Positions 1-7,594 of a DNA stretch of 40,765 nucleotides are shown piece after piece (position 1 is the stretch's first letter; each line of letters begins with the position of its first letter). Made by a program: the position numbers and the translations under genes. Origin of the DNA: a virus. Below the pieces are notes generated by a model, which searched no databases, was not told the origin of the DNA, and saw nothing but the letters and a program-made list of their open reading frames with translations. The stretch is taken from positions 1 through 40,765 of the IMG/VR virus record IMGVR_UViG_3300020201_000047; one strand, written 5' to 3'.

Positions 1-20
1 CCTTGCTTATTGGTGCCCAT
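1..20 (-). CDS. possible start of the next early gene (truncated by window edge)
   Basis: An ATG on the minus strand (positions 20-18) directly abuts the last unit of the pentamer array and opens a frame reading M-G-T-N-K-Q to the window edge. The GAGG/AGGC units just before it could serve as a ribosome site. Only six codons are visible, so the product is unknown. In context it would be the next gene of the early operon after the 147-residue protein. Confidence 0.3.
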
Positions 21-234
21 GCCTCGCCTGCCTTGCCTCGCCTCGCCGCGCCAAGCCAAGCCCCGCCAAGCCGCGCCTGCCGTGCCTAGCCTAGCCGCGC
101 CATGCCTAGCCCCGCCTCGCCTGCCGTGCCGTGCCGCGCCGGGCCCTGCCGAGCCCTGCCGCGCCACGCCGAGCCTGCCTAGCCACGCCGGGCCTGCCGA
201 GCCGTGCCTTGCCACGCCACGCCACGCCTGCCGA
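21..234 (-). repeat. 44-unit degenerate pentamer array, (N)NGGC on the minus strand
   Basis: Read on the minus (mRNA-sense) strand the segment is an unbroken series of 44 units ending in GGC. Thirty-eight units are 5-mers (NNGGC) and six are 4-mers, always AGGC. The two variable bases take 12 of the 16 possible dinucleotides (GC 5, GT 5, GA 4, AC 4, TA 4, TC 4, TT 3, AA 2, AG 2, CC 2, GG 2, AT 1); CA, CG, CT and TG are absent. The array begins three bases after the stop codon of the 238-681 gene and ends exactly at a possible ATG (18-20), so it fills the whole intergenic space. The period is not a multiple of three and does not look coding. GG every five bases gives potential for two-tetrad G-quadruplexes in the transcript. 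Confidence 0.9.
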
Positions 235-237
235 GTC

Positions 238-681
238 TCAGGCCGCAAGCCGGCCGAGGGATTCGGCCGCGTTCCACACCTGCGCCAGCTCCTGCAAGTG
301 CCCGTACTTTGTGCGCAGTGCCTGCAATCCCCGCAGCGCGTCCTCGACCAGTTCGGCGCGCTTGGTCTGATCAGACAGCACCGTCAGAATCGGACGGTAG
401 ATATTCGTGCCACGGTCTGAGGACAGCGACACATACGCGCGCACTGCCCGGTCCTGTCCGTCCACCGGGATCACGCGCACCACGAGCCGGAGATACGCCT
501 GCGCTTGCTGCTCGCGGTACTTCGGCCCGGCCTTCTCGTCGTCCCACTCGAACAGGCCGTGCAGGGCGGTCGCGGGGTCGGACGCGAACTCCACAATGGC
601 GGCTGGCGTCACGGAGTCGCCGCTCCGCTGGACCAGCGCGTCCAGCTCCGCGCGCCGCAGGGGCGTCAGAGGATACGTCAC
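238..681 (-). CDS. conserved phage early protein with FEWDD motif
   Basis: This 147-residue soluble protein starts at a GTG that overlaps the stop of the upstream gene (GTGA), so the two are probably translationally coupled. A central motif, H-G-L-F-E-W-D-D-E-K-A followed by YREQQAQAYLR (about residues 41-64), resembles a family of small phage hypothetical proteins found in early/recombination operons; this match is from memory, not from a search. The rest is predicted mostly helical, with a basic and acidic mix and no membrane segment. No catalytic motif was recognised and the function is unknown. The pentamer array begins three bases after its stop codon. Confidence 0.8.
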   Translation of the reverse strand: MTYPLTPLRRAELDALVQRSGDSVTPAAIVEFASDPATALHGLFEWDDEKAGPKYREQQAQAYLRLVVRVIPVDGQDRAVRAYVSLSSDRGTNIYRPILTVLSDQTKRAELVEDALRGLQALRTKYGHLQELAQVWNAAESLGRLAA

Positions 682-1325
682 GCCGCCTGTTCCTGCTCAA
701 CGAAAAACATGCCGTACCCCATCCCCGCCGATTGCTTGCTGTCCGGGCGCCCTTCGCCGATGCCCACCTGCGCCCCTGCGCGCATTAGCAGGTTGATTAC
801 ATCGGTCGCCGTGAATTGGTCGGCGTCGTACGTCAAGCGCACATCCGCGCCCCACTTGCGCCACAGCGGACGCGCGCGAATATCGATCACGCCGGTTGCG
901 TTCCGGACCACCATCGTGGACATCTCGGGGTCGGGCGCAATCAGATGCACGAGCGGCGTCCCGTCTTTCACGCAATAATCGTCGTTCTCCACGAAGACAG
1001 AGAGCTTGGCTTTCGTCATCTGGAAGCCCACCAACCGGCACGCAGAGATCATCGCGGCGCGAAACGCGGGCGCCGGAATGCCACAGCGCCCATTAGACCC
1101 CACGTGCTGCGCGTCCGCGAAATCTTGCGGGTAATTCCGCGCGGCGTGCTGCTTCTTTCCGCGACCCGTGCTGCCCTCTTGCTGCTTCGCCATGTACTCG
1201 CCCTTCTTGGAAAACCGATGCTGCATGTACGGCGTCTTTCCGGTGATGCGCACCGCGACCAGCCGCAGATTAGGTGCTTTGATCGTGATGGTCTGTGCTT
1301 GTGCTACTTCCGGGTTGGTGCTCAT
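678..1325 (-). CDS. conserved phage early protein, possible recombination/nucleic-acid-binding role
   Basis: The ATG at 1325 is preceded by AAGGAG at good spacing, so it was chosen over a longer upstream frame whose extra residues look random. The 215-residue product has an N-terminal ITGKTPYMQHRFSKK segment (about 27-41), and near the C-terminus a glycine-rich GIGEGRPDS loop followed by GMGYGMF (about 188-207). I recognise this arrangement from a widespread phage early family, often near single-strand annealing genes. The glycine-rich loop before a final beta strand resembles ferredoxin/RRM-type RNA-binding folds (as in RAMP proteins), but that is speculative. It lies third from the early promoter and is coupled to the next gene. 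Confidence 0.8.
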   Translation of the reverse strand: MSTNPEVAQAQTITIKAPNLRLVAVRITGKTPYMQHRFSKKGEYMAKQQEGSTGRGKKQHAARNYPQDFADAQHVGSNGRCGIPAPAFRAAMISACRLVGFQMTKAKLSVFVENDDYCVKDGTPLVHLIAPDPEMSTMVVRNATGVIDIRARPLWRKWGADVRLTYDADQFTATDVINLLMRAGAQVGIGEGRPDSKQSAGMGYGMFFVEQEQAA

Positions 1326-1780: not shown

Positions 1781-2218
1781 ATGGAACCGCCAGAAAATCG
1801 AGAGTTTGCGGAGCGGTTGCGGGGCGCCATGCGGCGGAAAGGCATGCAAGGGAAGGTCCTTGCGCCTCTCGTTGGCGTAGTCCCGGGGACGATTTCCGAA
1901 TGGCGAGCGGGCAAGTTCGTCGCCGAGGGCGACAACTTGGACGCGCTTGCTGGTGCGCTGGGCGTGACATCCGAATGGCTGCGCCACGGAGACCGGCAAG
2001 CGGGGGCCGCGCTGTCTGCGTCTGAGTTGCGCGGCTACGCGATTGCAGTTCGCGACATGCTGGAGAGTGCGCGAGTCTCCCAGCAACGCATTATTGACGG
2101 TTTGGGGTCACTGGCCGCGCGTCCCCAACCCATAGCCACCACCCCCTCTACACAAAAACGGCCCGCCGTTATCCCCGGGGTGGTCTCACCGGACAAGAAA
2201 CAGGGCGCGCGGGCTTGA
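1781..2218 (+). CDS. XRE-family phage repressor (CI-like)
   Basis: This 145-residue protein has an N-terminal XRE-type helix-turn-helix (about residues 9-66): RLRGAMRRKGM, then APLVGVVPGTISEWRAG and LDALAGALGVTSEWLRHGD. The C-terminal half contains a helix (RGYAIAVRDMLESARVSQQ) likely to mediate dimerisation, and ends in a low-complexity tail. There is no LexA-type Ser/Lys peptidase domain, so induction by RecA cleavage is not expected. The ATG has no obvious Shine-Dalgarno and lies close to the promoter region, so initiation may be weak or leaderless. It is divergent from the early operon and sits beside the palindromic operator. A role as the lysogeny repressor is inferred from context. Confidence 0.85.
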   Translation: MEPPENREFAERLRGAMRRKGMQGKVLAPLVGVVPGTISEWRAGKFVAEGDNLDALAGALGVTSEWLRHGDRQAGAALSASELRGYAIAVRDMLESARVSQQRIIDGLGSLAARPQPIATTPSTQKRPAVIPGVVSPDKKQGARA

Positions 2219-4511: not shown

Positions 4512-5287
4512 GTGGCGGCCGTCGACACCCACACGGTCACGACGTCGTAGCCGCTGGCGCGATCGGACGCGACGTCTTGCGGCGAGACATACCGCCACGT
4601 GCCCTCGCCGTCACGGTAGGCGGGGACGGCTCCGGTCGGCGCGGCGGCCTTACTTTCGTCCGCCAGCGTAGCGCTGCACGTGCCCGGCAGGACGCGGCCC
4701 GTGTCGTAGTCGATGACGGTGGCCACGCGCGCCACGAGCCCGGCACGGGTTGCGAACTGCTCCGCGTCGGCCCGCGTCGAAAACGTGACGTACTCGCTGC
4801 CGTTCGTCGGCTCACCACTCTCGGCGTAGGCGAGCACATAGACGCCTGCGTCGAGGCGGAAAAACACCTGCTCGCCCTTGGTGATCGCGCCGTTGCTGTT
4901 GTGCACGGTGTGGGTCGCGGTCAGTATCTGTGATTCGCCGAGCGCGTAGAACGTCAGGGCGGGCGCCTTCTCGTCCTCTTCGTCTTCTTCGTCTTCCTCG
5001 TCTTCCTCGTCTTCTTCGTCCGACCACGGGTAGTCGATCGCAAGCTGCATCCACACACGTCCGACGATTTCACGCAATTCGACGATTCGCTGGTCATCTA
5101 CTGGGGACCCGTCCGCCAGCCGGGCCGACACACTGTTCAGCGAGCCGCTGACAATGTGCAGCTCGGCGTCAGGGTAGGCCGCCTGTAGGGCTGCGACGTA
5201 GCGCGACGCCGCGGCGTCATTGGTGAGGCTGGTAAGATTCGCAGCGTCGTGGCTGCTGACGAAAATCTGGGCGATTGGCTCTTGCAT
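4508..5287 (-). CDS. hypothetical protein with acidic DEE-repeat linker
   Basis: The ATG at 5287 follows the same CGGAGACGACA-type leader as the 3529-3900 gene. The 259-residue protein has two folded parts joined by a very acidic linker, SDEEDEEDEEDEEDEEDEK, at about residues 89-107. The N-terminal half is mixed alpha/beta (AQIFVSSHDAANL, AELHIVSGSLNSVSARLADG). The C-terminal half is beta-rich (TFYALGESQIL, YVLAYAESGE, YDVVTVWV). It has no signal peptide or membrane segment. Such acidic tracts can mimic DNA or bind basic proteins, so an anti-host or anti-restriction role is possible but untested. Confidence 0.75.
   Translation of the reverse strand: MQEPIAQIFVSSHDAANLTSLTNDAAASRYVAALQAAYPDAELHIVSGSLNSVSARLADGSPVDDQRIVELREIVGRVWMQLAIDYPWSDEEDEEDEEDEEDEEDEKAPALTFYALGESQILTATHTVHNSNGAITKGEQVFFRLDAGVYVLAYAESGEPTNGSEYVTFSTRADAEQFATRAGLVARVATVIDYDTGRVLPGTCSATLADESKAAAPTGAVPAYRDGEGTWRYVSPQDVASDRASGYDVVTVWVSTAAT
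4971..5020 (-). repeat. 9-bp tandem coding repeat (Asp-Glu-Glu units)
   Basis: About five copies of a 9-bp unit (GAC GAR GAR in frame) encode the acidic linker. Third-position differences between units show that it is not freshly expanded. Copy-number change would stay in frame and only alter linker length. Confidence 0.75.
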
Positions 5288-6964: not shown

Positions 6965-7594
6965 GTGGGCGTCCCATCAGCCATTACCACGCGCCGACAA
7001 CGCGCCGTCGAAAGTTTTCAGACCGCTGCGGAATGCATCGGCACGATTGAACCGGGCGCCTCGCTATTTGCGATCACGCGCGGCCAATTCTCCATGATCG
7101 ACGCTATTCTCGCCTGCCTCGACCAAACGGGGCCGGCGCACGTCTCGCTCTGGACCTGGACCATCGCGGAATATGAAATCGAGTGCATGGAGCGGCTGCA
7201 GAACGATGGCCGGCTGACCGGCGGCACGCTCGTCATTGATCACGGGGTGCGCAGGGTGCGCAAAAACGAAATCATCAAACAGTGGCAAGAAAATTTCGGA
7301 CCCGACTCCGTGCGCTACGTCGTGAATCACTCGAAAATCGCCACGATTGAAAACGAACGATTCCGGTTACTGTTGCGTGGCTCGATGAACCTCAATTTTA
7401 ATCCGCGATTCGAACAATTCGACCTGACCGAAGGTGGCGCCGATTTCGATCTGGTGAAACGCATCGAGGGCGAGCTGCCGATCCTCCCGCACTCCGTGAG
7501 CGGGGAAGACGTCTACAAGGCCAGCAAAGTCGCGAACGCCTTCGCGCCCGAGCAACTCGCCATGTTTTCGGGGGCGAAAGTATGGGCAAAATAG
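6965..7594 (+). CDS. phospholipase D-superfamily nuclease-like protein
   Basis: The GTG start follows a GGAGAGGG ribosome site. The 209-residue protein has one HxK motif, NHSKIATIEN at about residues 121-130, followed by RGSMNLNFNPRFEQFD (138-153). This is the H-x-K-x4-(D/E)...G-S-x-N layout of the PLD superfamily. The usual Asp of the HKD motif is replaced by Glu or Asn. A single motif suggests it works as a dimer, as in Nuc-type nucleases. It overlaps the P27-like gene by 13 bases, so the two products probably act together on phage or host DNA. Nuclease activity is inferred. Confidence 0.75.
   Translation: MGVPSAITTRRQRAVESFQTAAECIGTIEPGASLFAITRGQFSMIDAILACLDQTGPAHVSLWTWTIAEYEIECMERLQNDGRLTGGTLVIDHGVRRVRKNEIIKQWQENFGPDSVRYVVNHSKIATIENERFRLLLRGSMNLNFNPRFEQFDLTEGGADFDLVKRIEGELPILPHSVSGEDVYKASKVANAFAPEQLAMFSGAKVWAK

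Follow-up and report, generated by a model that had tools for sequence, protein, structure and literature searches.

VIPR has recently been described as a phage-encoded relative of CRISPR that consists of an ancestral RAMP protein, Vipr, and a small accessory gene (PMC13142463, bioRxiv 2026.04.26.720920). In that preprint, the guide RNAs (vrRNAs) are built from alternating GGY and NN, with 9-16 repeats per vrRNA and an invariable 3' tail, and the NN pairs read double-stranded DNA and pass over one base in every unit, usually the codon wobble base (PMC13142463). According to the same source, the system represses competing phages, a small RNA co-purifies with Vipr, and the encoding genomes are mainly phages and proviruses (PMC13142463). 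Class 1 CRISPR-Cas systems, with their Cas7/Csm3 backbone, resemble the system analysed here in the RAMP fold, RNA-guided recognition and periodic unpaired positions. The latter, however, lacks CRISPR repeats, spacers, Cas1/Cas2 and a multi-gene effector, and its code is interrupted at every unit.

Here, we analyse a 40,765-base IMG/VR virus record (the window, meaning the whole stretch of DNA studied), which includes terminase and Gp7-like capsid genes and carries a degenerate GGC repeat close to one end. Homology and gene association together make it almost certain that this repeat is the guide-RNA (vrRNA) array of a phage VIPR system. We assign the array to VIPR because the genes upstream of it encode a Vipr protein, matching PDB entry 36pp, and a small partner.

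The Escherichia phage SUSP1 (type II VIPR; PDB 36pp) resembles the window in its Vipr family, in a small accessory gene directly after vipr, and in phage-encoded GGY/NN guide RNAs with arrays in the flanking intergenic regions. Its accessory protein, however, belongs to another family, and it has four separate vrRNAs of ~100 nt, whose tails are long and structured and whose anchors mix GGT and GGC, whereas the window has one unbroken 44-unit GGC array with AGGC units and shows no tail before the contig stops. Mycobacterium phage Quico, Gordonia phage Ecliptus and Cyanophage Cy-LDV1 share with the window a Vipr with a phrog_15946-like partner as well as long GGC arrays, in which AGGC recurs at intervals of roughly 7-14 units. 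In Quico the array precedes vipr, and in Ecliptus and Cy-LDV1 it lies between the genes or follows them; its NN content is unrelated to that of the window. These three phages are called VIPR here by homology, and their records do not carry the VIPR name.

Structure of the array

The array occupies positions 21-234 on the minus strand. Read from 234 to 21, it parses directly into 44 units without remainder, namely 38 NNGGC and 6 AGGC, exactly as counted and placed in the preliminary description. It starts 3 bases past the TGA of the gene at 681-238, and an ATG stands at its end. When the window was simulated 60 times with a third-order Markov model, no run exceeded 6 units and the longest was usually 3. 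A tandem-repeat scan found only this short-period array. The array is neither a product of chance nor an assembly artefact. A CRISPR array was considered and rejected, since the same scan found no 23-47 bp identical repeats with unique spacers. The array region had no match in Rfam.

Twelve of the 16 possible dinucleotides occur in the variable slot. The absence of CA, CG, CT and TG, which had been pointed out before, is real in the window but carries little meaning, because the arrays of relatives use all 16 and because C in the first NN position is generally depleted across them (14%, against 27% at codon position 1). The ATG at the end of the array had been proposed as a candidate start codon. 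The triplet is there, but its role as a start is doubtful because ATGGGC (15-20, minus strand) is itself a 6-nt NNNGGY unit and the SUSP1 arrays end likewise in ATGGGT; on sequence grounds it more probably belongs to the RNA's end, either as a terminal 6-nt unit or as the beginning of a 3' tail. The contig ends 20 nt beyond the array, and any 3' tail is therefore cut off. In locus L003 (654-1199) and in SUSP1 (L128) the arrays close with a 6-nt unit of this kind (ATGGGC/ATGGGT), after which comes a repeated tail; these arrays differ from the AGGC type.

GG tracts every 4-5 nt could also make the array a G-quadruplex or another self-folding RNA or DNA element in which NN is an unconstrained loop, and the DNA fold of the region is indeed better than that of shuffled sequences (z -3.5), a result left without explanation. 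The RNA fold, on the other hand, is no better than that of shuffles (z -0.64), which speaks against the two-tetrad quadruplex that had been suggested as the function. Self-folding also leaves unexplained the C in GGC, the spacing of AGGC, the codon bias of NN, the RAMP gene and the target matches reported below, and we consider it very improbable.

The vipr operon

The array directly follows two overlapping genes on its own strand, at 1325-678 and 681-238. The first of these (678-1325, minus strand) encodes the Vipr protein, with 215 aa, membership of phrog_4652 and a RAMP/Cas7 fold; the identification draws on PHROG, a PDB profile match, AlphaFold and Foldseek. The second (238-681, minus strand) overlaps the end of vipr and encodes a Vipr-associated protein of 147 aa belonging to phrog_15946. 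Neither phrog_4652 nor phrog_15946 has a function assigned in PHROGs, and searches of Pfam, NCBIfam and PADLOC did not yield a usable name for the two proteins. Upstream of the operon lies a divergent HTH repressor gene (1781-2218, plus strand), recognised by Pfam HTH_3 and PHROG repressors.

A profile grown from the 215-aa protein of the window and one homologue served to recognise the Vipr family in other contigs, and the profile of the family comprises 62 sequences, all of which match phrog_4652. In the PDB this 62-sequence profile matches one protein, 36pp_D, the 'SUSP1 Vipr protein' (E 1.8e-45). It was this match that supplied the name of the system; literature searches by the wording of the repeat returned nothing. 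The AlphaFold model of the window's Vipr (pLDDT 91) has its best Foldseek matches among Csm3, Cmr and type VII Cas7 RAMP proteins. The model of the partner protein (pLDDT 94.5) has no significant structural match in the PDB, where its best, weak matches are winged-helix regulators. The partner protein has no homology to SUSP1 vap1, and its family is common to the Quico, Ecliptus and Cy-LDV1 phages. Genomes scanned with the window's protein held no close relative, and megablast of the window against phages found no relative.

The presence of a Cas7-like RAMP as the neighbour bears on the earlier proposal of a recombination target, in which the array would be the DNA or RNA target of an adjacent annealing or recombination protein. 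Some annealing proteins cover a number of nucleotides per subunit that resembles the 5-nt periodicity, and RusA is found near some arrays. The protein linked to the array is, however, a RAMP homologous to the solved Vipr, with no single-strand annealing protein adjacent. The variable NN would be pointless in an annealing target, and near-identical phages differ in NN. There is accordingly very little chance that the array serves recombination. The other early suggestions, an RNA scaffold or a protein-binding array, came close to the guide-RNA reading, in which the RNA would be bound by the RAMP protein.

Elsewhere in the window, positions 6965-7594 (plus strand) encode a protein with a phospholipase-D-like HSK motif (VVNHSKIATIEN) and no Pfam match, and a 9-nt repeat present six times at 4967-5020 encodes an acidic EDE stretch.

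Association of array and gene across relatives

The association was examined from both directions. For the pattern-first set, IMG/VR was scanned for GGC-NN repeated eight times, which yielded at least 120 contigs. Among the pattern matches listed, 85 of 120 contigs carry the Vipr family by the profile from the window's protein and one homologue, compared with 1 of 114 unrelated IMG/VR control contigs, and in 83 of these 85 the nearest array lies on the strand of the gene. Such arrays are thus not scattered at random without regard to genes, an outcome that the preliminary description had named as evidence against its reading. The protein-first set comprised 110 Vipr loci (80 from IMG/VR, 29 from genomes and one further close relative). 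A same-strand GGY array was present within about 2 kb in 96 of these loci and an opposite-strand array in 1, while 1.24 Mb of far control sequence contained one GGY chain. The earlier view of the array as non-coding, tied to an early gene and associated with a protein was right. The accessory gene (phrog_15946-like) was found in 97 of the 110 loci. GGC makes up 86-93% of the anchors, and its share is unrelated to contig GC (r 0.08).

Three pairs of loci whose vipr genes are 98.7-99.4% identical at the nucleotide level (L177/L179, L201/L202 and L227/L238) differ in NN by whole blocks. In such near-identical phages the spacing of GGC is kept and blocks of NN are duplicated, lost or replaced, so that the change in copy number anticipated earlier does occur. 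Block-wise change of NN at a kept register would be expected of guides under selection. The duplication and deletion of modules between close relatives would also suit a microsatellite made by slippage, or an assembly artefact, without function. The array type nevertheless recurs, with anchor, strand and neighbouring gene unchanged, in hundreds of contigs and in named phage isolates; this refutes slippage as the sole cause, as had been argued from the fixed anchor, and we give a functionless origin practically no credence.

The Vipr family is present in 27 Mycobacterium phage records. The isolates Quico (L130, NC_028751.1), Ecliptus (L131), Pseudomonas phage LESphi2 (L129) and Cy-LDV1 (L127) each have Vipr together with GGY/NN arrays, and in all four the Vipr gene is annotated as 'hypothetical protein'. 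The longest array seen, in L216, is a single chain of about 236 GGY sites (1.3 kb) that lies about 48-1335 bases past vipr, between vipr and the accessory gene. Further, 35 pattern-first loci (e.g. L113, L023, L067 and L093) have no Vipr in the fetched stretch and are often near a contig end; several of them have arrays of 28-36 units, and some may be solitary.

AGGC units and guide modules

The 535 arrays analysed together contain 878 units of 4 nt, of which 813 are AGGC. Between one 4-mer and the next there are most often 8-10 five-mers, and about three-quarters of the intervals fall at 7-12, where under random placement the counts would fall off steadily. In the arrays of relatives, the first 4-mer is mostly the second unit and the last is mostly the final or second-last unit. 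The window conforms exactly: its first AGGC is the second unit, within the head TCGGC-AGGC (226-234, minus strand), and its last is the second-last unit. From these positions the array splits into five modules of 6, 3, 10, 8 and 9 units, all on the minus strand. Read as putative guides, module 1 (196-225) has the NN pairs GT GT GT AA AC TC, and module 2 (177-191) has CC GT TA. Module 3 (123-172) reads TC GT GC AG TC AG CC GC AC AC, module 4 (79-118) GA GG TA AT GC TA TA AC, and module 5 (30-74) GC TT GG TT TT GC GA GA AA. With 6 and 3 units, the first two modules fall short of the 9-16 repeats published for a vrRNA, and together they may be one 10-unit guide broken by the loss of 1 nt.

Judging from the spacing, the positions and the two clear target matches described below, AGGC probably separates one guide from the next. 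A more specific proposal, which we put forward tentatively, is that AGGC acts as a punctuation word that shortens the register and is unread on the target, bounding tail-less guides within one transcript, with the modules as swappable cassettes. VIPR itself has recently been described, and the preprint already mentions staggered arrays; what seems to be new here is the meaning given to the 4-base units. Alternatively, the system could be VIPR with AGGC as no separator, the vrRNAs overlapping and a guide running through AGGC as a mere register shift. This has in its favour that a supplementary figure of the preprint is on 'staggered arrays with overlapping vrRNAs' (PMC13142463) and that the window's modules of 6 and 3 units would join into one 10-unit guide. 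Against it, AGGC spacing equals the length of a single guide, arrays start and finish with AGGC, and neither the two clear target matches nor the suggestive third extend beyond the AGGC on either side. We regard a guide that runs through AGGC as rather unlikely, although not negligible.

Targets of the modules

Modules of 8-14 units, delimited by AGGC or by the end of an array, were scanned against 2.2 Mb of loci, allowing skips of 0-3 bases. A module of L151 (Sphingomonas soli) matches the vipr codons EDMVRVGM in three other systems at 16 of 16 letters with skip 1, and a 10-unit module of L136 matches the vipr codons DVVNLFSRVG in L207 at 19 of 20, also with skip 1. Both matches are codon-phased, the skipped base being the wobble base, and they are bounded by AGGC on either side. 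By our own estimate, the chance expectation over the whole scan is about 0.2 for the L151 match and 0.02 for that of L136. Each set of shuffled guides gives about 0.8 matches to vipr with one mismatch, so that the L136 case draws on length and phase as well as on the count. The two stretches concerned (L151 11055-11161 and L136 7625-7712) are guide modules aimed at conserved vipr codons elsewhere, that is, VIPR against VIPR. In addition, an 11-unit module of L176, reversed, reads VAVAYVRVSTD, which is like the start of a serine integrase, and has two mismatches to one in L030; this case is suggestive.

The two clear matches, with the suggestive third, come from 687 modules tested. An all-against-all scan of the 2.2 Mb of loci showed no excess at any skip length beyond the vipr and integrase cases, and vap genes were matched by modules no more often than by chance. 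Among the phases compared over 642 modules, codon positions 1-2 in the sense direction gave the closest fit to NN usage, with a modest r of 0.49. The window's own modules had no convincing target in IMG/VR. Exact one-skip searches of IMG/VR returned none for module 3 and none for module 4, and for module 5 an exact skip-1 search returned five contigs that represent one locus, a low-GC gene for an acidic protein, which is probably a chance match. Subsets of 8 units of module 3 matched 45 and 69 IMG/VR contigs, and these extra matches follow chance.

A variable-length translational spacer, one of the roles first considered for the array, is not supported, since it does not account for the neighbouring RAMP gene, the common strand, the spacing of AGGC or the target matches. 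The same holds for the quadruplex, recombination-target and slippage readings.

Proposed working and significance

For the array of the window we infer transcription, RNA binding, DNA targeting and the separation of guides by AGGC. The array would be transcribed on the minus strand together with vipr and the accessory gene, and the Vipr RAMP protein would coat the RNA with one subunit per 5-nt GGC-NN unit. The NN pairs would then pair with double-stranded DNA, leaving one target base unread between one NN and the next, and the outcome would be repression of genes in competing phages or prophages. AGGC would mark where each guide module begins and ends, and the 44 units would hold about five modules.

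A puzzling repeat is hereby assigned, with near certainty, to a just-described RNA-guided system that is thought to predate CRISPR. Arrays of this type occur very commonly among viruses with many different hosts, laboratory phages of Mycobacterium and Gordonia among them. The AGGC rule would allow long arrays to be cut into guides and their targets to be predicted, and the vipr genes of rivals are among the targets found.
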